Source of the DNA: Pollutibacter soli
Lineage (GTDB): Bacteria; Bacteroidota; Bacteroidia; Chitinophagales; Chitinophagaceae
Reading direction: 5' to 3'
DNA length: 64,000 nucleotides
Assembly: GCA_029269725.1 (NCBI GenBank)
Contig: JARJHS010000001.1
Location: forward strand, 372,001 to 436,000
Below the pieces are notes generated by a model. That model saw only the letters and a list, made by a program, of their open reading frames with translations, was not told the origin of the DNA and did no database searches. This document shows, piece by piece, positions 51,519 through 64,000 of the stretch. The first letter of the stretch is position 1. The number at the start of each line of letters is the position of its first letter. A program made the translations under genes and the position numbers.

Positions 51519-51851
51519 TCACCTGCTGCTGAATATTTTATCCATTAAAATCCACTTTTCGCCTGACTTCGCCCAGGGAAGGGGTTGCTGAAAAGTCCAC
51601 ATGAAATTTTCCCATTCCTGCAGGCGTGGATCTTTTGCTTCTTTCGCCGCCATCGCTTCGAAACTGAAATCGTCATCGGTTTCTATGATCATGAACAGAC
51701 GAGTACCTGTCCTGTAGAGTTCCATCAACTGAATTCCGGAGACTTGTATATGCTCTTTTACTTCCGGCCATATATTACGATGGATTCGTTCGTATTCTGC
51801 TATCCGTACAGCATCATCCTTCAGGTCCAGGGCAAGACAGAATTTTTTCAT
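51519..51851 (-). CDS. L-fucose/L-rhamnose mutarotase (RhaM family)
   Basis: The 110-residue product fits the RhaM fold family (formerly DUF718): KKFCLALDLKDDAVRIAEYERIHRNIWPEV at the start, LMELYRTGTRLFMIIETDDDF, and the C-terminal LQEWENFMWTFQQPLPWAKSGEKWILMDKIF. The family interconverts alpha and beta anomers of 6-deoxyhexoses. The characterised member acts on L-rhamnose; the fucose-only setting here argues for L-fucose (inference). I use the ATG at 51851, which overlaps the fucP stop by four bases (ATGA), rather than a TTG 19 codons upstream. Confidence 0.88.
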   Translation of the reverse strand: MKKFCLALDLKDDAVRIAEYERIHRNIWPEVKEHIQVSGIQLMELYRTGTRLFMIIETDDDFSFEAMAAKEAKDPRLQEWENFMWTFQQPLPWAKSGEKWILMDKIFSSR

Positions 51852-53062
51852 GAACTTATTTTTACACGGTATCCGGAAAATGCAAAAAACACAACGATCC
51901 CAAAACAAATCAACGGAACGATAAAGGCAGTAGGTGTACTGTAATGATCGGCAAGGTATCCCATAACCACAGGTACCAATGCACCGCCAACAATAGACAT
52001 GATGATAAAAGAAGACCCGTTTTTTGTATGCTTTCCGAGATCTTTTACACCCAACGCAAAAATGGTCGGGAACATGATCGATTCGAAAAAGAATATAGCC
52101 ATCAACGAACCAATCGAAAGTTTACCTGAACCCCAAACTACAAAGGCACATAAAATAATATTGATGATGGCATAAACACCGAGCAATTTATTCGGAGGCA
52201 CGGCGCGCATGATTGCTGTACCGGTAAACCGACCGATAGTAAAAAGCAGGAGACTGATAAACAAAAGATAAGATGCATCCTGGTTTGAAATACCCAATCC
52301 TTTTTCAGTGCAGTAGTTGATAAATAACGCAGCAATTCCAACCTGCGCAGCAACATAGAAAAATTGGGCCACTACTGCATGTTTGAAATTGCTGTGCTGA
52401 AAAAGAGTGGTCTCAGCCTTCATCACCGTACTCTCTACTTTTTCCTCTTCTTTCACTTCAGGCATCGGTGTCCTGAAAAAAATCAATGCCACGATCAATA
52501 CTACAACAGCTATCAAAACATAAACAAGTTGAACGGATTGCAGGTTGTTGGTTTCGGCAGTGGTCGGTTCACCCTCACTAAAAAACAAAGCACCTCCGAT
52601 AATCGGTCCGACAAAAGATCCAACACCATTAAAACTCTGCGACAGGTTCAACCTGAAGGTTGATGTTTTGGGATCTCCTAAAACAGTAACATATGGATTT
52701 GCTGCAGTTTCCAGAAAAGTAATTCCAGATGCGAGGATGAATATCGCCAAAAGAAAAAATGAAAACGAACTCATTTCCGCAGCAGGATAAAACAAAGATG
52801 CGCCTAACGCAAATAAGAGTAAGCCGAATATAATTCCCTTCCTGTATCCAGCTTTCTTCATAAACAATCCGGCTGGTAATGCGATAGTAAAGTAAGCACC
52901 AAAATATGCGGCCTGCAATAATGTCGATCTCTGCCGGGTAACGTTTAAAGCTTCCTGGAAATGTTTATTCAATACATCCAGCAACCCATAAGTGAGACCC
53001 CATAGAAAAAATAAACTGGTTACTAATATCAGAGCCAGCAGGTAAGGGTTTTTTGATTTCAT
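51848..53062 (-). CDS. fucP: L-fucose:proton symporter, FucP-type MFS permease
   Basis: The 404-residue product has 12 membrane helices and FucP-family landmarks: LVTSLFFLWGLTYGLLDVLNKHFQ, AYFGAYFTIALPAGLFMKKAGYRKGI, and FLETAANPYVTVLGDPKTSTFRLNLSQSFNGVGS. The family imports L-fucose, or related sugars, with protons. Its position between the mutarotase (4-base overlap) and L-fucose dehydrogenase genes supports fucose as substrate. A heptad array fills the 68-base gap to the dehydrogenase gene. Confidence 0.9.
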   Translation of the reverse strand: MKSKNPYLLALILVTSLFFLWGLTYGLLDVLNKHFQEALNVTRQRSTLLQAAYFGAYFTIALPAGLFMKKAGYRKGIIFGLLLFALGASLFYPAAEMSSFSFFLLAIFILASGITFLETAANPYVTVLGDPKTSTFRLNLSQSFNGVGSFVGPIIGGALFFSEGEPTTAETNNLQSVQLVYVLIAVVVLIVALIFFRTPMPEVKEEEKVESTVMKAETTLFQHSNFKHAVVAQFFYVAAQVGIAALFINYCTEKGLGISNQDASYLLFISLLLFTIGRFTGTAIMRAVPPNKLLGVYAIINIILCAFVVWGSGKLSIGSLMAIFFFESIMFPTIFALGVKDLGKHTKNGSSFIIMSIVGGALVPVVMGYLADHYSTPTAFIVPLICFGIVVFFAFSGYRVKISS

Positions 53063-53070
53063 ATATGGCG

Positions 53071-53119
53071 ACGTTTAACGTTCTACGTATTACGTTTAAC
53101 GTTTAACGTTAAACGCAGC
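53071..53119. repeat. Degenerate 7-nt tandem array, seven units
   Basis: Seven heptads of the ACGTTTA / ACGTTCT / ACGTTAA type fill the gap between fucP and the fucose dehydrogenase gene. Both genes are on the minus strand, so the array would be transcribed within the operon. Confidence 0.82.
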
Positions 53120-53130
53120 GAGTTAAAAAA

Positions 53131-53901
53131 TTATAAAGCACGATCGAGGTGAACATATCCGCCATCAACATGTATCAGCTGACCGGTGGTATGGCTCGAT
53201 TTCTCTGATAATAAAAATGCAACCGTCGATCCGATTTCTTCTGTGGTCGTCATTCGCTGACCGAGCGGAATTTTATCCGTTATCCTCTTCAGTGCTTCAT
53301 CAGGATCAGGCAATGTCTGGATCCATTTTTCATATAGTGGCGTATATGATTCAGCCACTATAACCGCATTCACACGTACGCCATATTTCAACAATTCGAC
53401 GGCCCATTCTCTTGTCAATGCATTACGGCCACCATTAGCAGCAGCATATGCAGACGTTCCGCCCTGGCCGGTTTCCGCCGTTTTTGAAGATATATTTACG
53501 ATTGCTCCTTTAGACTGAATCAACGATGGCAATGCCCAATGTGCCATCAGGTAATAATGTACAAGATTTTTATGCAGCGATGCCATGAACCGATCATAAT
53601 CTCCATTTTCAAGGTTAACTCCGTCATTTACTCCTGCGTTATTGACAAGACCATCGATACGACCATACATATTCAATACGGCATCGATTGCTTTTTTGCA
53701 TTCATCAGGATTGGTGAGCTCCGCAACAACATGATTGCCTTTGTGTGAAATTTCATCGAGTGCCTTAAGATTATCTTCTTTATTTCGTCCAATAATCACA
53801 GGTAAGGCACCCTCTCCAGCAAGCACTTTTACAATTCCATCACCAATGCCTTTCGCACCACCGGTTACAACAATGATCTTTCCTTCTAATTGTAAATCCA
53901 T
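53131..53901 (-). CDS. SDR-family L-fucose dehydrogenase
   Basis: The 256-residue product is a classical-length SDR with the nucleotide motif TGGAKGIG (13-20), LVNNAGVNDG (85-94) and the SDR C-terminal VDGGYVHLD. It should oxidise L-fucose to L-fucono-lactone, the first step of the non-phosphorylating route. Oddly, the catalytic YxxxK reads YAAAN (Tyr 152, Asn 156), so the lysine is missing; the flanking GGRNALTREWAVEL is otherwise normal. Role is assigned mainly from context: it is followed by fucP and mutarotase and preceded, one base away, by the lactonase gene. Confidence 0.8.
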   Translation of the reverse strand: MDLQLEGKIIVVTGGAKGIGDGIVKVLAGEGALPVIIGRNKEDNLKALDEISHKGNHVVAELTNPDECKKAIDAVLNMYGRIDGLVNNAGVNDGVNLENGDYDRFMASLHKNLVHYYLMAHWALPSLIQSKGAIVNISSKTAETGQGGTSAYAAANGGRNALTREWAVELLKYGVRVNAVIVAESYTPLYEKWIQTLPDPDEALKRITDKIPLGQRMTTTEEIGSTVAFLLSEKSSHTTGQLIHVDGGYVHLDRAL

Positions 53902-53902
53902 A

Positions 53903-54733
53903 TTAATCGATTTGATAAAAACGAATGGCGTTTCCTCCCATCACTTTTTTTCTTTCTTCCTCTGAAACCTGGCCAAGAAAACGCGTTAATATTCCCTGTA
54001 CTTCTCCATAAGATGCTGCAAGCAAACATACCGGCCAGTCTGATCCAAAACACAATCGCTCAACTCCGAAAAATTCTGCCGCAATTTCAAGATAAGGTGA
54101 AAGATCTTCATATTTCCAATGTTTCCAATCCGCTTCAGTAACCATTCCACTCAATTTACAATAGGTGAGGGGATGCTTTGAAAGAATCCGGATCTGTTCA
54201 CGCCAACGCTTGATCTCTTTGTATTTTATTGCAGGTTTACCCAGGTGATCCAGCATAAAAAACTGATCAGGAAAATTCTCGACAAACCTGTTTAATGAAG
54301 GCAACTGATCCTGGTATACGAGTAAATCATATCTCAGGTTAAATGAACTCAGCCATTTCAATCCGTTTTTGAATGAAGCATTGGTGAGGTAAAGTTCATC
54401 TGGTTTCCCCTGTATGATATTCCTGAAACCTTTTAATTTCTTCTCTTTTTTCGCATGGATCAGTTTTTCTTCAATCGCAGGGGATTTAAAATCCAACCAT
54501 CCGACAACAGCTTTTATGAAAGAATATTCCGATGCCAATCCCAACAGAAATTTATTCTCATCCTCCGATTCATCTGCCTGTACGGCAACACATCCATCAA
54601 CCGCATTCGTCTGAAAAATTTTCAACAACTGGTCAGGAAGAAAATCTTTTCTGATCACTTCCATATCGGGCGTTATCCAGGCATCCCTGACCTCATTGAA
54701 TTTCCAGAAATGCTGATGTGAATCGATGGTCAT
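53903..54733 (-). CDS. Amidohydrolase-family L-fuconolactone hydrolase
   Basis: The 276-residue product belongs to the COG3618 TIM-barrel metal-dependent hydrolases. The N-terminal TIDSHQHFWKF carries the HxH pair, MLDHLGKPAI holds the later His, and CFGSDWPVCLL carries the Asp near the end of the barrel. Characterised relatives open L-fucono- and L-rhamnono-lactones to the free acid. It sits between the dehydrogenase gene (1-base gap) and the diketo-acid hydrolase gene (14-base gap), as expected for the second step of fucose oxidation. Confidence 0.87.
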   Translation of the reverse strand: MTIDSHQHFWKFNEVRDAWITPDMEVIRKDFLPDQLLKIFQTNAVDGCVAVQADESEDENKFLLGLASEYSFIKAVVGWLDFKSPAIEEKLIHAKKEKKLKGFRNIIQGKPDELYLTNASFKNGLKWLSSFNLRYDLLVYQDQLPSLNRFVENFPDQFFMLDHLGKPAIKYKEIKRWREQIRILSKHPLTYCKLSGMVTEADWKHWKYEDLSPYLEIAAEFFGVERLCFGSDWPVCLLAASYGEVQGILTRFLGQVSEEERKKVMGGNAIRFYQID

Positions 54734-54747
54734 ATTGCAGAAAAAAT

Positions 54748-55602
54748 TTATCTGGCGTTTACTGCTGTCTGTTCCTGCTTGCCAAGACCTTCTATTCCGA
54801 GTTTTACATGATCGCCGGCGACAAGGTATTTCTGCGGCTTCATTCCAAGGCCTACACCCGAAGGCGTACCGGTAGTAATTACATCACCCGGCAGCAGGGT
54901 CATGAATTGCGAAATATAACTGATGAGAAAAGGAATATTAAAGATCAGATCTGAAGTACTGCTATCCTGTACACGTGTTCCATTAACCTCCAGCCATAAC
55001 CGAAGATTGTGCGGGTCTTTTACTTCATCCGGAGTTACAAGCCATGGACCCAAGGGCGCAAAGCTGTCACAGCTTTTCCCTTTTACCCATTGTCCGCCGC
55101 GTTCCAGTTGAAATGCGCGTTCGCTGTAGTCGTTATGCACACAATATCCGGCAACGTAGTCCAATGCATTTTTTTCGTCGACATACAAAGCCCGCTTACC
55201 TATAACCACCGCGAGCTCAACTTCCCAGTCTGTTTTTTCAGAATTCCTGGGTATGATAACATTGTCAAAAGGTCCGCATAAAGCCGTTGTACTCTTAAAA
55301 AAAAGAATGGGTTCTTTGGGTATGTCTGCTCCGCTTTCTGCCGCATGTTTTGCATAGTTAAGGCCGACACAGATTATTTTTGAAGGTCTTGCCACACATG
55401 AGCCGATTCTTTCCGCGCTGCTCACCTCCGGACAATTCTGTTCATTTTTTTCGAGCCATTCTTTTAATGAGGCGACACCATCATTCTGAAAAAAACTTTC
55501 ATTATAATCGGAGCCGAATGCACTTACATCGATAGATTTTCCGGAAGGCAGTACGACGCCCGTTTTTTCTGCACCTTCTTTCCCAAAGCGGAATAGCTTC
55601 AC
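54748..55602 (-). CDS. FAH-family hydrolase, probably 2,4-diketo-3-deoxy-L-fuconate hydrolase
   Basis: The 284-residue product has the fumarylacetoacetate-hydrolase fold. Metal ligands are visible in DWEVELAVVIGKRA (Glu-x-Glu) and HNDYSERAFQ (Asp), and the C-terminal signature is VITTGTPSGVGLGMKP. In the known pathway an enzyme of this family splits 2,4-diketo-3-deoxy-L-fuconate into pyruvate and L-lactate. Context fits: it is co-directional with the lactonase and dehydrogenase. The start codon is GTG at 55602 (sequence KLFRFGKEG follows); no ATG is available nearby. It may be the first gene of its operon since a 357-base gap precedes it. Confidence 0.85.
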   Translation of the reverse strand: MKLFRFGKEGAEKTGVVLPSGKSIDVSAFGSDYNESFFQNDGVASLKEWLEKNEQNCPEVSSAERIGSCVARPSKIICVGLNYAKHAAESGADIPKEPILFFKSTTALCGPFDNVIIPRNSEKTDWEVELAVVIGKRALYVDEKNALDYVAGYCVHNDYSERAFQLERGGQWVKGKSCDSFAPLGPWLVTPDEVKDPHNLRLWLEVNGTRVQDSSTSDLIFNIPFLISYISQFMTLLPGDVITTGTPSGVGLGMKPQKYLVAGDHVKLGIEGLGKQEQTAVNAR

Positions 55603-55959
55603 GTTGATTTTGTTTTAAGGTTATTTAAAATGAAATGGAAATATAGAGAAAAAGGACGAGAGACGTAGTAGAGCCAGGCAGAAGGCCGGAGTGAGGAGGC
55701 AGTCTCACCTTTAGCGCGACGCAAATGTTGCTGTTTAAACTAACTTGAAGATTTAGATCGTTAAGTCTCAACTGTAAATTTTCAAGTTATATAGTAGGAT
55801 TTTTAACGAAGAGAAATTAGTATCAAGCGTTAAAAACAGTTTTAATACTGTCTGCAATACAATGTGACCAGCTTTATCTTGTTTATGATATCCTTAATTT
55901 GATGCCTGACACTTTCGTCTATTTTCTAAATATCCTGCCTCCCCACTCCTTACTCCTCA
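55603..55959. repeat. Non-coding gap flanked by inverted heptad arrays
   Basis: Array 55671-55698 (GAGCCAG, GCAGAAG, GCCGGAG, TGAGGAG) and array 55934-55961 (CCTGCCT, CCCCACT, CCTTACT, CCTCACT) are inverted relative to each other; 14 of 15 bases of the segment GGAGTGAGGAGGCAG match in reverse complement. The second array overlaps the stop of the next gene. The 235-base centre has no gene or recognised site; it should hold the promoter of the fucose genes on the minus strand, but I cannot point to a clear one. Confidence 0.7.
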
Positions 55960-56736
55960 CTAATTATTCAGCCTCGTAAATCCTCCATCAATAGCATAAT
56001 CGCATCCGGTGATAAAACCTGCTTCCTCACTACAAAGGTATAACGCCAGATAGGCAATTTCTTCCGGTTTTGCCATGCGCCCGATGGGTTGGGTCGCTGA
56101 TAACTTCTCAAACATCTCCTGTTCTTTGCCAGGATAATTTTTACTGATAAATCCGTCAACAAAGGGTGTATGCACCCGCGCCGGGGAAATGCAGTTACAC
56201 CTGATGCCTTGTTTGAGATAATCTTTTGCAACACTTAATGTCATCGAAATTACAGCACCCTTGCTGGTGCTGTAAGCAAAGCGATCCGGAATGCCGATCG
56301 TGGCTGCAATTGATGCCATATTCAGGATTACACCCCTGGATTTTGCCAGCATAAACGGCAATACTGCATGAATACAATTGTATGGCCCTTTAATGTTAAC
56401 ATTGAGGATTCTGTCGAAATCTGCTTCTGTTGTATTGAGTGCATTTCCAACGTGAGCAATACCTGCATTGTTAACCAGAATATCAACGCCTCCGGTATCT
56501 GCAATTGTTTGAATTACTGCTTTCACTTTTTCCTGATCGGCAATATTCACTTCGTGTGCAGTAGCCTTATATCCAGAACTTCTTATTTCTGAAGCAACTT
56601 CTTCCGCAAGGGCTCCATTCAATTCCAGGATGTGGACATCTCCGCCCTGGCTCGCAAACAATTTTGAAATGGCAAGACCGATTCCACTTGCACCACCGGT
56701 GATAATTGCCGACCTGCCTTCAAGAGAAAATATCAT
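55960..56736 (-). CDS. SDR-family 2-keto-3-deoxy-L-fuconate dehydrogenase
   Basis: The 258-residue product has all SDR motifs: TGGASGIGLA (14-23), LVNNAGIAHVG, a complete catalytic YSTSK, and the C-terminal TGCDYAIDGGFTRLN. Relatives near fucose or rhamnose genes oxidise the C4 hydroxyl of 2-keto-3-deoxy-L-fuconate to give the 2,4-diketo acid. This is the step directly before the FAH-family hydrolase encoded next on the same strand. It is divergent from the second FAH-family gene, with a 99-base shared upstream region. Confidence 0.85.
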   Translation of the reverse strand: MIFSLEGRSAIITGGASGIGLAISKLFASQGGDVHILELNGALAEEVASEIRSSGYKATAHEVNIADQEKVKAVIQTIADTGGVDILVNNAGIAHVGNALNTTEADFDRILNVNIKGPYNCIHAVLPFMLAKSRGVILNMASIAATIGIPDRFAYSTSKGAVISMTLSVAKDYLKQGIRCNCISPARVHTPFVDGFISKNYPGKEQEMFEKLSATQPIGRMAKPEEIAYLALYLCSEEAGFITGCDYAIDGGFTRLNN

Positions 56737-56835
56737 GATGAATTTTTGCGGATGAAATTAGTAAAAAGATAGCCAATTGTATATACATGTGAGTAGTGCA
56801 GAAATTATAATATTTTCGAAGACATTTTAAAATAT

Positions 56836-57669
56836 ATGAAACTATACAGGACGTCTTCATCTATTCTGATAGAACATGAGGGTCAGTATTATGAATCCAA
56901 TGCCGACTGGGATGAGTTTGTTAACCGCGAAGGCCTGTTTGCGTGGCTGAAAGAAAAACTCGCATCATTTAAGCCTTCTGTTGCGCCTGAGCCTGACACA
57001 TCATTTCTGCCGCCGATTCAATCTCAGGAGATCTGGGCCGCTGGTGTTACCTATTTTCGTAGTCGCACTGCCAGGATGGAAGAGTCCAAAGACGCGGGTG
57101 GCGGAACTTTCTATGATAAGGTTTATCATGCCGAAAGACCCGAAATATTTTTCAAGGCGCTGGCGCATCGTACTACAGGGCACCGGGGTAAGATCCGCAT
57201 ACGCCGGGATTCTGCCTGGGATGTGCCTGAACCTGAGCTTACCTTGTTTATGTCATCAGCAGGTACCATTGAAGGATATACCGTTGGAAACGATGTCAGT
57301 TCAAGAAGTATTGAAGGCGAGAATCCATTATATCTTCCGCAGGCAAAATCGTATCAATACAGCGCTGCACTGGGCCCCTGTCTGCTGGTTAAGGAAAGAG
57401 TAATTCCAAGAGATGCGACCATCCGCCTGCACATCATTCGAAAAGGCCAGGACATGTTTGATGGAAATATCACCATCGATCAGATGAAAAGATCGCATGA
57501 GGAGCTGGTAGAATTTCTGTTTCGTGAATCAGATTTTCCATACGGTGCTTACCTGATGACAGGCACGGGTATTGTACCTCCTGACAGTTTCACGCTGCAG
57601 GAAGGGGATGAAGTTCGCATATCCATTACTGGTATTGGTACCCTGATCAGTTTCACCGAGAAAAAATAA
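56836..57669 (+). CDS. Second FAH-family protein (KdaD-like dehydratase or hydrolase)
   Basis: The 277-residue product has a diverged N-terminal domain and a C-terminal FAH catalytic domain. Metal ligands appear in [10 protein letters not shown] (Glu-x-Glu) and [15 protein letters not shown] (Asp), with [19 protein letters not shown] near the end. The shape [12 protein letters not shown]-like segment and [12 protein letters not shown] resembles 2-keto-3-deoxy-D-arabinonate dehydratase-type members more than the FAHD1-type hydrolase at 54748. Its reaction in fucose use is not clear, since the known pathway needs only one FAH enzyme. It lies 3 bases from the GH29 gene and opens the plus-strand operon. 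Confidence 0.78.
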
Positions 57670-57672
57670 CAG

Positions 57673-59157
57673 ATGCGTTATACAGCTTTTTTTGTTCTAT
57701 TGTTTTCAGGTCTTTCCGTTTTTTCACAATCCGGCCCGCCAGCACCCTACGGCGTTTTACCTTCTGCGAGGCAACTCCAATGGCATGAAACCGAAATGTA
57801 TGTGATCATGCACTTTACGCCTACAACATTCGAAAATAAAGAATGGGGTTATGGTGATGCTGACCCATCTATTTTTAATCCTACTGATTTTAATCCTGAT
57901 CAGATCGTAAAATCTGTGAAAGCGGGCGGCTTCAAAGGCTTTATCATGGTAGCAAAACACCATGATGGATTCTGTCTCTGGCCGACGAAAACGACTCCTT
58001 ATAATATTTCAAAAAGCCCATGGAAGAACGGCAAAGGAGATATGGTGAAAGAGTTTCAACAGGCGTGTAAAGCCAATGGAATAAAGTTTGGCGTGTATTG
58101 CTCTCCGTGGGACAGAAATAATCCTGCCTATGGAACTGAAGCCTATGTGCAGACGTACAGGAATCAATTGAAAGAGTTGTACAGCAACTATGGTGATTTG
58201 TTTATGAGCTGGCATGATGGGGCAAATGGAGGCGACGGTTATTATGGTGGAGCTAAGGAATCCAGGAAGATAGATCGGTCTGTATATTATGGCTGGGATA
58301 CGACCTGGGCAATAACACGGAAAATGCAGCCAGGTGCAAGTATATTCAGCGATGTGGGATGGGATGTCCGTTGGGTAGGAAATGAACGAGGTGAAGCCGG
58401 GGCAACTTCCTGGGCAACATTTACGCCGACCCCACTAGAGGGGAAAACGAAAGTCGGACCAGGAGAAGTTCGTGATGATCTTTCTCCGGAGGGCACACGT
58501 AATGGAAAATTCTGGATACCGGCGGAATGCGATGTTCCGCTTCGAAAAGGATGGTTCTATCATCCGGAAGAAGACAGCACTGTAAAATCGCCCCGTAAAC
58601 TTTTTGATCTCTACCTCAAAAGCGTTGGACGAGGAGCAGCGCTTGATCTGGGAATTTCACCCGACAGGCGCGGACAATTACACAACAATGATGTAAAAAA
58701 CCTCGCAGCACTGGGAAAAATTATCAATTCCATGTACAAGGAAAATCTTGCATCAAAAGCAACCATACTTGCCAGTAATACCAGGAATAAGGATTCAAAA
58801 AATTTTGGTGTTGCAGGTTTGGTTGATAATAAAATGCAGACTTACTGGTGTTCAGATGATAGTGCAAAAAATCCTGAGCTGACACTTGAATGGAAAAACG
58901 CGCAAACCGTAAACATCATACGACTGAGAGAGAATATTGCTCTTGGTCAACGCATTGAAGAAGTAGTTTGTGAAGCGTGGATGGATGGCAGCTGGAAAGA
59001 AATTGCAACTGCAACGAGTATTGGTGCGAGCAGAATACTGTATCTTGAAAATCCGGTTACAACAAATAAGCTGCGTGTCAGGATAACAAAATCTCCGGTG
59101 GCGGTAACGTTGAGCGAATGGGGGGTGTACTACTTAACTCCCGATCTGCTGCAGTAA
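57673..59157 (+). CDS. GH29 family alpha-L-fucosidase with C-terminal carbohydrate-binding-like domain
   Basis: The 494-residue product has a signal peptide ending SVFSQ. The GH29 barrel covers about 30-340: WHETEMYVIMHFTPTTFENKEWG, then FIMVAKHHDGFCLWPTKTTPYNIS, GIKFGVYCSPWDRNNPAYG, and MSWHDGANGG, in which Asp 182 is the likely nucleophile. The last 130 residues form a discoidin-like beta-sandwich (FGVAGLVDNKMQTYWCSDD). GH29 enzymes are retaining; this form resembles the alpha-1,3/1,4 branch (B type), while the GH95 gene would cover alpha-1,2 links. It lies 3 bases after the FAH gene and 43 bases before the permease gene. Confidence 0.92.
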   Translation: MRYTAFFVLLFSGLSVFSQSGPPAPYGVLPSARQLQWHETEMYVIMHFTPTTFENKEWGYGDADPSIFNPTDFNPDQIVKSVKAGGFKGFIMVAKHHDGFCLWPTKTTPYNISKSPWKNGKGDMVKEFQQACKANGIKFGVYCSPWDRNNPAYGTEAYVQTYRNQLKELYSNYGDLFMSWHDGANGGDGYYGGAKESRKIDRSVYYGWDTTWAITRKMQPGASIFSDVGWDVRWVGNERGEAGATSWATFTPTPLEGKTKVGPGEVRDDLSPEGTRNGKFWIPAECDVPLRKGWFYHPEEDSTVKSPRKLFDLYLKSVGRGAALDLGISPDRRGQLHNNDVKNLAALGKIINSMYKENLASKATILASNTRNKDSKNFGVAGLVDNKMQTYWCSDDSAKNPELTLEWKNAQTVNIIRLRENIALGQRIEEVVCEAWMDGSWKEIATATSIGASRILYLENPVTTNKLRVRITKSPVAVTLSEWGVYYLTPDLLQ

Positions 59158-59200: not shown

Positions 59201-60535
59201 TTGGCCAGCAACACTACTTCGCTTAAAAAAACGCTGACTCCGCTATCTCTCTGGGGGCTTGGTGTCGGTTATGTAATCAGCGGGATGTATTTTGGATGGA
59301 ATCTCGGGCTTGAGCAAGGCGGGACTTACGGGCTGGCAATTGCAACAGTATTCATCATCGTGATGTATACCTGTTTTTCATTCAGCTATGCGGAACTCGC
59401 CTGTGCAATACCGAAAGCCGGTGGCGTGTTTGACTATGCAGGTGCTGCATTTGGAAAAAATATGGGTTTTGTTGCAGGGCTCGCACAAATCATTGAATTT
59501 GTGTTTGCACCGCCGGCAATTTCAGCTGCTGTTGGCGCCTATTTCAATGCTTTTTTCCCTTCTGTGCCTGTGATATTGATTGCAATTATCGCATACATCA
59601 TTTTTACCTGTCTGAATATTTATGGTGTAAAAGCTGCTGCAAATTTTGAAACCTTTGTGACAGTACTTGCCGTTGCGGAATTACTTTTGTTTTGCGGACT
59701 AACGTTGCCGCATACGTCGACAGAAAAGTTTAGTCAGAATGCATTTCCCAACGGATGGGCGGGAGTATTTGCATCTGTTCCATTTGCAATCTGGTTCTTT
59801 CTTGGAATAGAAGGAATTGCCAATGTAGCTGAAGAATCACTTCAGCCTCAAAAAGACATAAGTAAAGGATTTGGCTGGTCGCTGGTCACGCTGGTGATCC
59901 TCTGTATACTTGTATTCTACTCGGCTGCTGCTATTAATGGATGGGAGAGTATTGTTTATACTGATGTATCTAAAACAACTACTTCAGATTCGCCTTTGCC
60001 GCTGGCGTTAAAAATAATAACAGGGGATAACAGCCTGATGTATCATCTTCTGATCACGGTAGGGCTTTTTGGATTGATTGCATCATTTCACGGATTAATT
60101 CTTGCGGCAGGCAGATCAACATATGAAATGGGTAAAGCGGGAAATCTTCCCGGAATACTGGGTCGCATTTCGCCGAAATTTCAAACCCCGGCCAATGCAT
60201 TGCTGGGTAATATGGTTATTGGCATCATCGCCCTGCTAAGCGGAAGAACGGGACAGATAATTACTATTTCTGTGTTCGGCGCACTGACGCTTTACATTAT
60301 TTCGATGTTATCATTGTTCAGGTTGAGAAAAAAATCTCCTGAACTGGCCCGGCCTTTTCATACGCCTGGTTATCCCTGGTTTCCTGCGATAGCACTGGTG
60401 ATTGCTATATTTTCGCTTATTGCAATGATGGTCTACAATCTATACCTAGGACTGTTGTATTTTGCAATACTGCTCACGGGATTTATCTTATTTAAATTGT
60501 TCACGAAAACAACAGAGCATGAGCAAGGTTCCTGA
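59201..60535 (+). CDS. APC-superfamily permease of the ethanolamine (EAT) type
   Basis: The 444-residue product has 12 membrane helices. Segments match ethanolamine permeases as I know them: LSLWGLGVGYVISGMYFGWN at the first helix, IEFVFAPPAISAAVGAYFNAFFP, VPFAIWFFLGIEGIANVAEES, and GLFGLIASFHGLILAAGRSTYEM. The first and third match the EAT group better than the amino-acid permeases in the same superfamily. It would import ethanolamine or a similar small amine. The start is a TTG at 59201; no ATG occurs before residue 28. Its 3' end overlaps the glutamine-synthetase-like gene by 17 bases. Confidence 0.83.
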   Translation: MASNTTSLKKTLTPLSLWGLGVGYVISGMYFGWNLGLEQGGTYGLAIATVFIIVMYTCFSFSYAELACAIPKAGGVFDYAGAAFGKNMGFVAGLAQIIEFVFAPPAISAAVGAYFNAFFPSVPVILIAIIAYIIFTCLNIYGVKAAANFETFVTVLAVAELLLFCGLTLPHTSTEKFSQNAFPNGWAGVFASVPFAIWFFLGIEGIANVAEESLQPQKDISKGFGWSLVTLVILCILVFYSAAAINGWESIVYTDVSKTTTSDSPLPLALKIITGDNSLMYHLLITVGLFGLIASFHGLILAAGRSTYEMGKAGNLPGILGRISPKFQTPANALLGNMVIGIIALLSGRTGQIITISVFGALTLYIISMLSLFRLRKKSPELARPFHTPGYPWFPAIALVIAIFSLIAMMVYNLYLGLLYFAILLTGFILFKLFTKTTEHEQGS

Positions 60536-61871
60536 ATGGATAGTACAGCATCCTGCCGGAAAAGTAAAACTGGCCATTGCAGATATCGATGGTGTGTTGC
60601 GTGGCAAGTACGTATCTATCGAAAAATTTGAAGGGGTCGCTGAAAATGGATTTGGATTCTGTGATGTTGTATTTGGATGGGATATGAATGATGCCGCATA
60701 TGATAATTCCGTTTTCACCGGATGGCATACCGGTTACCCGGATACGTTAGTGCAGCTGGATATGGCGACAATTAGAAAAATTCCCTGGGAAAATGGTGTG
60801 CCCTTTGTATTGGGTGACTGTGCAATACAGGAAAATGGTGCGCATTTTATTTGCCCGAGGCAACTGCTGAAAAAAATTACTGCTGAATGTTATTCTTCAG
60901 GTTTCGCACCGTTTTTTTCGCAGGAGTTTGAATGGTTCAATTTCGAGGAAACACCTCAAACTATTGAAGAGAAAAATTTTACTAATCTGAAACCACTTAC
61001 TCCGGGAATGTTTGGCTATAGTTTATTGCGAAGCAGCTATCGGAATGATTTCATGGAGGCGTTGTTCAGTCAGCTTGCTCAATTTGATGTTCCTCTGGAA
61101 GGTTTACATACGGAAACGGGTCCCGGAGTTTATGAGGCTGCTATTGCTTACGCTGAAATAATGGACGCGGCAGACAGGGCGGTGTTGTTCAAAACAGCCG
61201 TAAAAGAAATAGCATCAAAGCTTGGTATTACTGCAACTTTTATGGCGAAGATCAGTGAGTCTCTGCCGGGTTGCAGCGGGCATGTACATCAGAGCCTGTG
61301 GAATGCTGATAAAACCATCAACCTGTTTTATGATGAGCAGGAGCCGGATCATATGAGCGGCCTGATGCGTTCCTATATCGCAGGCCAGCTGAAATGTCTT
61401 CCTGAGATACTTCCTATGGTTGCGCCTACGGTTAACAGTTATAAACGATTGGTCGAGGGAGCCTGGGCTCCAACAACGCTCACCTGGGCGGTAGATAACC
61501 GAACGGTCGCATTAAGATCATTGCCTGCAGGTAAGAAATCCTGCCGGTTAGAAACAAGAGTAGTGGGATCGGATACCAATCCATACCTCGCGATGGCGGC
61601 TTGTCTTGCAGCTGGTCTTTACGGTATCAAAAATAAATTGTCACTCGGGCAACCTCCAACGAAAGGAAGTGGCTATTCCGAAAAGCAGTATGGTGTTTTA
61701 CCTGCTAACCTTGGCGAAGCTACCAGCATTATGAAGAAATCTGCATTGGCAAAAGAACTTTTTGGTGAAAACTTCGTCGCACATTTTACAGCAACGAGGG
61801 AATGGGAGTGGAAACAGTATGCTAAAGCGGTGACTGATTGGGAGAAGAGGCGTTATTTTGAAATTATCTGA
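60519..61871 (+). CDS. Glutamine-synthetase-like gamma-glutamyl amide ligase
   Basis: The 450-residue product has the type I GS fold: an N-terminal beta-grasp (VKLAIADIDGVLRGKYVSIEKF), catalytic FFSQEFEWFNFEE, HTETGPGVYEAAI, the ATP segment SGHVHQSLW (about 250), and VAPTVNSYKRLVEGAWAPTTLTWAVDNRTVALR. It is shorter and more divergent than GlnA, resembling PuuA and gamma-glutamylethanolamide synthetases, which join glutamate to an amine using ATP. I chose the ATG at 60519 because the family begins there; it overlaps the permease gene by 17 bases. With that permease and the PuuD-like hydrolase downstream, ligation of the imported amine is the most likely role. Ethanolamine as substrate is inference. 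Confidence 0.85.
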   Translation: MSKVPEWIVQHPAGKVKLAIADIDGVLRGKYVSIEKFEGVAENGFGFCDVVFGWDMNDAAYDNSVFTGWHTGYPDTLVQLDMATIRKIPWENGVPFVLGDCAIQENGAHFICPRQLLKKITAECYSSGFAPFFSQEFEWFNFEETPQTIEEKNFTNLKPLTPGMFGYSLLRSSYRNDFMEALFSQLAQFDVPLEGLHTETGPGVYEAAIAYAEIMDAADRAVLFKTAVKEIASKLGITATFMAKISESLPGCSGHVHQSLWNADKTINLFYDEQEPDHMSGLMRSYIAGQLKCLPEILPMVAPTVNSYKRLVEGAWAPTTLTWAVDNRTVALRSLPAGKKSCRLETRVVGSDTNPYLAMAACLAAGLYGIKNKLSLGQPPTKGSGYSEKQYGVLPANLGEATSIMKKSALAKELFGENFVAHFTATREWEWKQYAKAVTDWEKRRYFEII

Positions 61872-61924
61872 TCATTAGAACAGATCAGTATCTATTCTGC
61901 ATTGTCCACAACAAAAAATACTTA

Positions 61925-63067
61925 ATGAGCGGTATCAGCCAGTTTAATTTTCCGACAACGATCAGGTTTGGCCCCGGTGTTATAGAGGAACTGCCGGGTT
62001 ATCTGGAAAAAAATCAGTTGAAACATCCGCTGATTGTAACAGATCCCGTTATCGCGGGTCTGCCTTTTTTTAAATCGATCCTGCAGTCGTTGGATAACAA
62101 ACGTTTTCGCGTTGATGTATTCAGTGACATCCATAAAAATCCAGTAAAATCTGATGTGTACCGCGGAACAGAGGCCTGGGACGCTTCTCCTCATGATGTG
62201 ATTATTGGTATTGGGGGTGGGGCAGCGCTCGATGTTGCAAGAGCAATCGTATTAAGGGTGTATCATCGTGAAGATCTTTTCAAATATGATGATCTTATAG
62301 GTGGTGATGTTTATGTAACAGGTGATGTGCCTTGGTTTGTTACGGTTCCCACGACCGCGGGTACCGGTTCAGAGGTTGGGAGAAGCGCGATCATTGCAGA
62401 TGATGAAACTCATCAGAAAAAAATCCTGTTTTCCCCAAAACTTATAGCCAGGATTGTTTTTGCAGATCCTGCACTGACGATGGATATACCACCCGCTATA
62501 ACAGCGGCTACAGGGATGGATGCGTTGACTCATAATATGGAAGCATATCTCGCGAAAGACTATCACCCTATTTGTGATGGGATCGCGCTGGAAGGAATGC
62601 ACCTGATCAGCAGATCGATTGCTGATGCAGTACTCCGGCCAGACATAAAATCCCGTAGTAATATGCTGATGGCAAGTATGATGGGAGCAATTGCATTCCA
62701 GAAAGGGTTGGGCGTGGTTCATTCATTGGCTCATCCTATGTCTTCATTGCTGGACACACATCATGGCCTGGCCAATGCAATCAATCTTCCTTATGGTATG
62801 CGTTTCAATATTAAAGGCTTTGAAGAGAAATTTTCGCGTATGGCTGAAGCGTTGGGTCTGAAAGAAAAATCAGGCGATGCGGTTGTGGAATATTTGTTCT
62901 CACTAAACGAACAATTAGGGATACCCGAAAAACTGCGCGGCGCTGATGTTCAGCAAAAACACCTGGAAATACTCGCTGATCTCGCCTTTGCCGATTTTGC
63001 ACATCCCAATAATCCGAAACCAGTAACCCGGGAAGACTTCCTGAGGCTATACACTGAGGCGCTCTAA
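61925..63067 (+). CDS. Iron-containing alcohol dehydrogenase (group III)
   Basis: The 380-residue product has the group III nucleotide motif IGIGGGAALDVARA and TTAGTGSEVG. The iron ligands match FucO spacing exactly: Asp 199, His 203 (DALTHNMEAY), His 266 (HSLAHPMS) and His 280 (DTHHGLANA). It oxidises or reduces primary alcohols with NAD. FucO (lactaldehyde reductase) is a relative, but no aldolase-type fucose pathway is present here to make lactaldehyde. Between an amide ligase and a gamma-glutamyl hydrolase it would suit oxidation of the alcohol group of a gamma-glutamylated amino alcohol. Gaps to its neighbours are 53 and 43 bases. Confidence 0.9.
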   Translation: MSGISQFNFPTTIRFGPGVIEELPGYLEKNQLKHPLIVTDPVIAGLPFFKSILQSLDNKRFRVDVFSDIHKNPVKSDVYRGTEAWDASPHDVIIGIGGGAALDVARAIVLRVYHREDLFKYDDLIGGDVYVTGDVPWFVTVPTTAGTGSEVGRSAIIADDETHQKKILFSPKLIARIVFADPALTMDIPPAITAATGMDALTHNMEAYLAKDYHPICDGIALEGMHLISRSIADAVLRPDIKSRSNMLMASMMGAIAFQKGLGVVHSLAHPMSSLLDTHHGLANAINLPYGMRFNIKGFEEKFSRMAEALGLKEKSGDAVVEYLFSLNEQLGIPEKLRGADVQQKHLEILADLAFADFAHPNNPKPVTREDFLRLYTEAL

Positions 63068-63108
63068 CGTTACACGAAAAACGAACAACGACCAACGAAC
63101 AACGAATA
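63067..63108. repeat. Degenerate 7-nt tandem array, six units
   Basis: Six heptads (ACGTTAC, ACGAAAA, ACGAACA, ACGACCA, ACGAACA, ACGAATA) fill the gap between the alcohol dehydrogenase stop and the ATG at 63111 of the hydrolase gene, inside an operon. Confidence 0.85.
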
Positions 63109-63110
63109 CC

Positions 63111-63821
63111 ATGAAGCGCTTAACCATCGGAATAACAGAATGCAGCAAATACGAAAACTATTACAGATGGGTTATTGCAGAGCTTCCGGATATGGAGGTT
63201 ATCAAACTGGATTATAAAAACCCTGATGTTGATGATATTGCCAGATGTCACGGGGTATTGTTATCAGGTGGAGAAGATGTGCATCCTTCTATGTATAACA
63301 AGGCAGAGTATATTAATTATTGTTATGTCGATGATGTAAGTCTTCGAAGAGACGAATTTGAATGGAAGGTGATGACGGTTGCATCGACGAAAAATATTCC
63401 GGTATTGGGAGTTTGCAGGGGGCTTCAATTTGTAAATGTTTTTTTTGGAGGAACCCTTATCCCTGATGTCATCACGTGGGGGAAATTCAATCATTCCAAA
63501 TTGCCGGACGGGCTTGACCGTCATCATCAAATAAAAATTGATCCCACATCTTACCTGTTCAGATTGAGTAACCAGTTGGAATCTTCAGTTAACAGCAATC
63601 ATCATCAATCTGCTGACAAGATTGGTAACGGATTGGTGGTTGCCGCTGTTGCTGAAGACGGGACAGTGGAAGCTATTGAGAAAAAAGACCCCGAACAAAA
63701 CGGATGGATATTTCTGGTACAATGGCATCCCGAAAGGATGTTTGATCAGCAAAGCAAAATGGTGACCGCAGTAAAGCAAAGTTTTATGGATGAAGCCATG
63801 AGGTATGCTTTGAAAGCCTGA
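63111..63821 (+). CDS. Class I glutamine amidotransferase-like gamma-glutamyl hydrolase (PuuD-like)
   Basis: The 236-residue product has the class I triad: Cys 102 in VLGVCRGLQFVN, His 206 and Glu 208 in VQWHPERM. LLSGGEDVHPSMY near residue 51 is typical of PuuD and related peptidase C26 members rather than biosynthetic amidotransferases. PuuD removes glutamate from gamma-glutamyl-GABA. Here it would release the oxidised amine after the alcohol and aldehyde steps. It lies 43 bases after the alcohol dehydrogenase gene, with a heptad array between, and 22 bases before the aldehyde dehydrogenase gene. Confidence 0.87.
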   Translation: MKRLTIGITECSKYENYYRWVIAELPDMEVIKLDYKNPDVDDIARCHGVLLSGGEDVHPSMYNKAEYINYCYVDDVSLRRDEFEWKVMTVASTKNIPVLGVCRGLQFVNVFFGGTLIPDVITWGKFNHSKLPDGLDRHHQIKIDPTSYLFRLSNQLESSVNSNHHQSADKIGNGLVVAAVAEDGTVEAIEKKDPEQNGWIFLVQWHPERMFDQQSKMVTAVKQSFMDEAMRYALKA

Positions 63822-63843
63822 ACCAAATCAAACGAAATTATTC

Positions 63844-64000
63844 ATGAATATTATAAATCCCGCAACAGGAAAAATCATCACTACCATCCTGGAGGACGAT
63901 CGCGAATCACTGGAAAGAAAACTGGATATTCTCCGTTCAGGTGCTGCATCATGGCGGGAGCTTTCCATCGATGAACGCATTTTAGTTATCAGGAAATTTC
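63844..64000 (+). CDS. Aldehyde dehydrogenase family protein, N-terminus only (cut by the window edge)
   Basis: Fifty-two codons are visible from the ATG at 63844: the start NIINPATGKII and the helix RKLDILRSGAASWRELSIDERILVIRKF match the N-terminus of NAD(P)-dependent aldehyde dehydrogenases. The catalytic Cys and Glu lie beyond the edge. It starts 22 bases after the PuuD-like hydrolase gene, so it is likely the next enzyme of the same pathway, oxidising an aldehyde such as gamma-glutamyl-aminoacetaldehyde; that substrate is inference. Confidence 0.8.
   Translation, partial: MNIINPATGKIITTILEDDRESLERKLDILRSGAASWRELSIDERILVIRKF

Follow-up and report, generated by a model that had tools for sequence, protein, structure and literature searches.

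We analyzed a stretch of 64,000 nucleotides from the Bacteroidota strain Pollutibacter soli (G000:C1:372001-436000, on contig JARJHS010000001.1 of assembly GCA_029269725.1; genome of 6.1 Mb in 37 contigs), which is called the window throughout. Five plus-strand genes are packed at its right end, with intergenic gaps of -17, 53, 43 and 22 bases, and we propose with good confidence that they form an operon for the catabolism of ethanolamine to glycine via gamma-glutamylated intermediates. Pfam assigned their products, in gene order, to AA_permease_2, Gln-synt_C, Fe-ADH with ADH_Fe_C, Peptidase_C26 and Aldedh. An earlier note made from the letters of the window had listed the same row, namely an EAT-type permease, a glutamine synthetase (GS)-like ligase, an iron-containing alcohol dehydrogenase (Fe-ADH; ADH for short), a PuuD-like hydrolase and a partial aldehyde dehydrogenase (ALDH), and gene calls together with Pfam confirmed it. 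The ALDH is indeed cut by the window end, and the sequence past position 64000 completes a protein of 454 aa, the gene of which (G000:C1:435844-437208, or L009:13844-15208) ends 1.2 kb beyond the window. The most probable start codon of the ligase is the ATG at 60519, which makes its gene overlap the last 17 bases of the permease gene. A five-gene unit at this locus is certain, and its features are collected in Table 1.

Table 1. Operon genes and upstream neighbour at the right end of the window (window positions).
Feature	Position	Strand	Basis
EAT-type APC permease, predicted ethanolamine importer, 444 aa	59201..60535	+	TTG start; TIGR00908 428 bits; permease tree
GS-like gamma-glutamyl ligase, 450 aa	60519..61871	+	Gln-synt_C; residues; tree; AU test
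Fe-containing (group III) alcohol dehydrogenase, predicted gamma-glutamylethanolamide dehydrogenase, 380 aa	61925..63067	+	PF00465 + PF25137
Peptidase_C26 / class-I glutamine amidotransferase (GATase)-like amidohydrolase, predicted gamma-glutamylglycine hydrolase, 236 aa	63111..63821	+	PF07722 148 bits; motifs
Aldehyde dehydrogenase, first 157 bases in window	63844..64000	+	PF00171 420 bits
alpha-L-fucosidase with F5/8 type C domain	57673..59157	+	PF01120; judged outside operon

The permease is the strongest pointer to the substrate. It scored 428 bits against the NCBI ethanolamine-permease equivalog model TIGR00908 (cut-off 382 bits) and thus belongs to that family, while its identity to the putrescine permease PuuP is 24%. 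It alone passed an NCBIfam cut-off; the ligase, the ADH, the hydrolase and the ALDH all scored below every listed one. A survey of 395 Bacteroidota genomes (relatives at E <= 1e-40, own genome counted) yielded 20 EAT genes, among which eight stand beside a window-type ligase, two beside a ligase of a second type, termed group C, and seven beside EutB. The group C ligase forms a GlnA4-like module with a short-chain dehydrogenase (SDR), an ALDH and a GATase. As depicted by the permease tree, the group C EATs are nested within the EATs of the window-type operon (support 97/98; about 60% identical), the EutBC-linked EATs group separately (98/95), and PuuP lies far away, as do two further APC permeases. 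Hence the permease belongs on the EAT side, as the earlier note had supposed, with its relatives outside the window-type operon mostly beside EutBC or a GlnA4-like module. Its identity to the EutBC-linked EATs of Proteobacteria and Bacteroidota is 41-47%, and named plasmid EATs (44-46% identity) adjoin EutBC in Azospirillum, Moraxella and Methylobacterium. Because the group C EATs branch inside those of the window-type operon, closely related permeases serve different modules; with related permeases paired with several modules, the common denominator would therefore be ethanolamine. EutB itself occurs in 12 of the 395 genomes and in none of the eight with a window-type ligase beside the permease, an absence expected by chance at this frequency and thus not counted as mutual exclusion. 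The earlier note had seen no EutBC in the window, and a search of the whole P. soli genome found no EutB homologue.

Conservation of the gene order was assessed in the best 80 of 506 relatives, a list selected by similarity to the query ligase and referred to as the named loci (two of them, L054 and L152, are one locus from two collections). The complete set, with order and strand preserved, occurs in 52 of the 80; among the 60 whose flanks are long enough, 45 have it. The conservation in relatives that the earlier note had proposed as a check was thus found. In five of the 52 complete loci two operon genes lie more than 500 bases apart, with another gene between them in some. Genera with the complete order include Pedobacter, Parapedobacter, Solitalea, Olivibacter, Chitinophaga, Niabella, Flavihumibacter, Emticicia and Aquirufa, while Larkinella has four genes and no permease; one complete record is labelled Beijerinckiaceae (L145), a label that may be a binning error. 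The 28 incomplete loci comprise five with permease, ligase and ADH at contig ends; six with ligase, ADH, hydrolase and ALDH and no permease; five with permease and ligase only (L107, L110, L126, L154 and L158, the flanks of L126 and L154 being too short to judge); nine with a ligase alone on its strand, two of which (L159 and L168) have a similar ADH in opposite orientation; two with ligase and ADH (in L105 the ADH is only a 25% match, 4.7 kb off); and one in which the hydrolase was not detected (L179). Within the window's own family (147 genomes, own genome counted), the ADH was found in 26 genomes and the ligase in 38. All 26 genomes with the ADH have the ligase as well, side by side in 24 and on separate contigs in the other two. 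The five-gene grouping is more than chance.

The ligase scored 224 bits against the glutamine-synthetase model (cut-off 429), and the P. soli genome holds no second relative of it at E <= 1e-5. Its phylogeny was inferred from 66 sequences, including 20 ligases from the 80 named loci (13 from operons, three from permease-ligase pairs and four from other contexts); the Rhizobium leguminosarum, C. salexigens and MED193 ligases and GlnA4 itself lie outside this sample, in which the Embleya ligase (L190) stands in for the GlnA4-type cluster. The window ligase falls in one group, clade A (100/96), with seven relatives from other contexts inside. Next outward is clade B, from other Bacteroidota, followed by a group of Proteobacteria (Burkholderia, Paracoccus versutus, Photobacterium and Pseudorhizobium) and then by IpuC, the gamma-glutamylisopropylamide synthetase of a Paenarthrobacter aurescens TC1 record, which joins the window clade with weak support (89/32). 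Group C, the ligase of the Streptomycetaceae cluster (Embleya) and the cluster ligases of Ruegeria, Sinorhizobium and Paracoccus alcaliphilus make up a separate group (100/99). The earlier note had cited the GlnA4 route of Streptomyces; the tree and an approximately unbiased (AU) test both place the window ligase outside the clade of GlnA4-type-cluster, roseobacter and rhizobial ligases. Sequence searches of the PDB returned generic relatives only.

In the alignment most metal, glutamate and nucleotide residues are retained, while Trp316 stands in place of the catalytic Glu327 that glutamine synthetase has. Tryptophan occupies this column in all 23 rows of clade A (including the lone ligase L069 and L182, which has no permease), all 12 of clade B, all five of group C and all three IpuC-like rows; PuuA has tyrosine, and S. 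coelicolor GlnA4 has phenylalanine (PMC6529630). The Asp50 column holds aspartate in the window ligase and in 20 of the 23 clade A rows.

Other gene contexts were also seen among the ligase relatives. In L105, L111 and L118 (two named Emticicia and one metagenome-assembled Cytophagaceae genome), a clade A ligase lies between a 401-aa protein and a permease-like protein of about 443 aa, and the other operon genes are not beside it. Meanwhile, loci L058-L080 from other Bacteroidota (for example L058:8022-11388) carry a ligase next to a kinase-like protein and an HAD phosphatase, both partners being present in 21 of the 41 regions examined; wider regions had been taken for 36 of the 51 match genomes (own excluded) and for 4 of 18 from another search. 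The kinase-like partner of about 345 aa gave no Pfam match in the one member scanned, and its structure model bears a loose likeness to kinases of the aminoglycoside-phosphotransferase (APH) fold, one match being an aminopropanol kinase.

The ADH is 36-40% identical to the ADHs of five ligase-ALDH-FeADH clusters (Ruegeria, Sinorhizobium, Paracoccus and two from Photobacterium) and 28-31% identical to FucO, EutG and YiaY. Its best NCBIfam model is also the best one for the three cluster ADHs scanned, all of them scoring below the cut-off. Among plasmid matches of the ADH, the top-ranked one is located in a cluster of tripartite ATP-independent periplasmic (TRAP) transporter, ligase, ALDH and Fe-ADH, the layout of which is close to that of the Phaeobacter operon (PMC10132767). 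The ALDH carries the motifs NNGQSCC and LELGGK, scored under the cut-offs of its best NCBIfam models, and is 35-38% identical to four cluster ALDHs, 31% to PuuC and 31% to the ALDH of the Embleya cluster. In the ADH and ALDH trees, the window clade is adjacent to, and not within, the group of ethanolamine (ETA) references; because few outgroups and long branches mark the ADH tree, the ADH evidence is limited to identities and this broad grouping.

The hydrolase has the motifs GVCRG at 100 and WHPE at 205. Its family, Peptidase_C26, is the type present in the GlnA4-type cluster of Embleya, and gamma-glutamylglycine is its predicted substrate. None of the five operon genes encodes a hydrolase of the N-formylglutamate amidohydrolase type (PF05013). 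Hydrolase and ALDH are joined in one open reading frame (ORF) in nine of the 67 hydrolase-bearing loci (66 distinct; 121 loci scanned), eight of these proteins having 693-706 aa and the ninth (L150) an interrupted ALDH. The same functions meet once more on a plasmid of Photobacterium sp. GJ3, where one strand of a stretch unannotated in its record (L102:5451-11642) encodes an EAT, a GS-like ligase, an ALDH, an Fe-ADH and a class-I GATase.

The enzyme set makes it very likely that gamma-glutamylation is followed by oxidation of an alcohol and then of an aldehyde. Ethanolamine is the likely substrate, chiefly on the strength of the permease and the neighbouring genes. With gene order, families, key residues, conservation and permease class observed, we infer the substrate, each reaction and the reaction direction as follows. 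The EAT permease would import ethanolamine, and the GS-like ligase would use ATP and glutamate to convert it to gamma-glutamylethanolamide. Since glutamate caps the amine, no free aminoaldehyde would form when the Fe-ADH oxidizes the hydroxyl group to give gamma-glutamylacetaldehyde. The ALDH would then produce gamma-glutamylglycine, from which the C26 amidohydrolase would release glycine and regain glutamate. Such a route would require neither cobalamin nor EutBC nor a microcompartment. This is the pathway that the earlier note had read from the letters of the window, and the permease score and the joint conservation of the five genes support it. Also in its favour are the constant company of ADH and ligase in the family genomes, the one-ORF joining of hydrolase and ALDH, the neighbours of the Bacteroidota EATs, the TRAP-ligase-ALDH-FeADH cluster around the plasmid ADH match and the gene set of Photobacterium sp. 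GJ3.

A gamma-glutamyl ethanolamine pathway was reportedly predicted in Chromohalobacter by an earlier study. For S. coelicolor GlnA4, gamma-glutamylation of ethanolamine was shown in vitro and backed by a glnA4 mutant, the later steps and the product glycine being predictions (PMC6529630). The Streptomyces cluster (SCO1610-1615) shares with the window operon the ligase, the ALDH and a glutamine-amidotransferase-type hydrolase, and in other Streptomyces also a putative ethanolamine permease, but it has a short-chain dehydrogenase in place of the Fe-ADH and another gene order (PMC6529630). The Embleya cluster of GlnA4 type (hydrolase, EAT, ligase, ALDH and SDR) likewise has a ligase from a different clade. 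In C. salexigens, Phaeobacter and Ruegeria (L099), a GS-like ligase, an alcohol dehydrogenase and an ALDH stand together, with no EutBC among the genes described (PMC10132767, PMC9397018), and proteins of the Phaeobacter operon increase on phosphorylethanolamine (PMC10132767). The families given for the C. salexigens pathway are PF00120, PF00465, PF00171 and PF05013 (PMC9397018 Table 2). These three systems use a TRAP transporter, an N-formylglutamate-amidohydrolase-type hydrolase and an RpiR regulator where the window has an EAT and a C26 hydrolase, and the Ruegeria ligase belongs to another clade than that of the window. Both C. salexigens and Ruegeria have an Fe-ADH as the window does, so this enzyme is no novelty of the present operon; it is found in C. 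salexigens (PMC9397018 Table 2) and in the Ruegeria, Sinorhizobium and Paracoccus clusters. EAT-EutBC modules share the permease family with the window, but have ethanolamine ammonia-lyase in place of gamma-glutamylation. GS-like ligases for other amines have been reviewed (PMC11335346), and Flavobacterium is named in the literature among ethanolamine users. Thus the gamma-glutamyl ethanolamine pathway, and the use of an Fe-ADH in one, are already known. What is new is the Bacteroidota operon, of a kind that the earlier note was not aware of and for which our search of the open-licence literature listed no description, together with the ligase from another clade and the joining of hydrolase and ALDH.

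Several observations weigh against ethanolamine as the substrate. A joint clade of the window ligases and the ETA/GlnA4-type-cluster group was rejected (p-AU 2.2e-5, for a grouping chosen with the tree already in view). The Glu327 column holds phenylalanine in all three ETA references and tryptophan in the window ligase. At the Tyr179 column, where the alignment is gappy, clades A and B have phenylalanine and group C and the ETA references have glutamate, so the amine pocket differs from that of the ETA references. The closest named characterized ligase is IpuC (38% identity), which acts on isopropylamine. Furthermore, ligase relatives of 52-62% identity sit in the conserved ligase-kinase-HAD phosphatase context, and hence the substrate is not given by ligase homology alone. 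As for the permease, three of the 20 Bacteroidota EATs have neither ligase nor EutB alongside, and one plasmid EAT (Paraburkholderia) adjoins a primary-amine oxidase.

The least improbable alternative is that these reactions act on a different short amino alcohol, such as alaninol, 3-aminopropanol or serinol, which would give alanine, beta-alanine or serine; we consider it unlikely. Any primary amino alcohol would suit the enzyme classes, the ligase falls outside the ETA-ligase clade and differs from it at pocket columns, and its nearest named characterized relative, IpuC, belongs to a pathway that runs via gamma-glutamylalaninol. IpuC also has tryptophan at the Glu327 column, like the window ligase. 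However, the permease scores above the ethanolamine cut-off and is kin to EutBC-linked permeases. Moreover, IpuC-type clusters include a P450 and a ferredoxin, and the nine genes scanned at 56836-66986 contain neither.

A route for putrescine or another diamine is very improbable. The E. coli Puu pathway does share the glutamate cap, the ALDH and the C26 hydrolase with the window, and a ligase of this kind fits its logic, but it differs in its PuuB flavin oxidase and PuuP permease. As pointed out earlier, an Fe-ADH stands where Puu has PuuB, and no PuuB-like flavin oxidase is among the five genes. The permease is remote from PuuP, and the ligase is 28% identical to PuuA and scored 189 bits against the gamma-glutamylputrescine synthetase model, far below its cut-off of 650. 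A Puu-like diamine route was rejected on these grounds.

Equally slight is the chance that the operon belongs to an adjacent fucose or glycan region and handles a glycan-derived amine. The fucosidase lies 43 bases 5' of the permease on the same strand, and next to it, at 51848-57669 and mostly on the other strand, are FucP-like permease, SDR-like, amidohydrolase-like and FAH-type proteins (the SDR and amidohydrolase being named by eye); this cluster and the fucosidase together look like a set for catabolism of fucose or a related sugar. Downstream of the ALDH follow CutC and then Asparaginase_2, both on the opposite strand. Yet a search of the 80 named loci at E <= 1e-8, with up to 9 kb of flanking DNA, retained no homologue of the fucosidase, FAH, CutC or Asparaginase_2, and therefore the operon was taken as five genes and the link to the neighbouring fucose genes was rejected. 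Least probable of all is that the ligase serves as a normal glutamine synthetase, or otherwise in nitrogen assimilation, and has the other genes as chance neighbours. The Gln-synt_C domain and the aspartate at the Asp50 position would suit this reading, but it was rejected given the replacement of Glu327 by tryptophan in all 23 rows, the score below the cut-off and the conserved five-gene order.

Ethanolamine catabolism via gamma-glutamylated intermediates thus remains our preferred reading, and it bears on how such pathways were assembled. On balance we lean slightly towards a scheme in which gamma-glutamylethanolamide synthesis was recruited twice, here from a different GS-like clade, and the Bacteroidota EAT acts as a hub for three swapped ethanolamine modules: EutBC; an SDR together with a GlnA4-like ligase; and the window ligase accompanied by an Fe-ADH, a C26 hydrolase and an ALDH, the last two sometimes joined in one protein. 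The ethanolamine activity may have arisen twice, or may have been ancestral to both ligase groups and lost in others.

Ethanolamine, a headgroup found in common membrane lipids, is released on cell decay. If the proposal is true, the operon would provide a B12-free conversion of ethanolamine to glycine and usable nitrogen in a phylum where EutB is present in few of the sampled genomes. It would offer a testable function for a gene set of Pedobacter, Chitinophaga, Emticicia and others, and an example of alternative catabolic modules that each go with a member of one transporter family. It also carries a warning that such ligases should not be called glutamine synthetases.

A scan for sigma-70 promoters and terminators, with a model that does not cover Bacteroidota promoters, gave sites no commoner than in shuffled sequence. 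Between the ADH and the hydrolase, at 63074-63108, lies a degenerate copy of an (ACGAACA)n repeat. A further 52 matches to this type of repeat were listed genome-wide, several of them within one array, and one array has 10 perfect copies.

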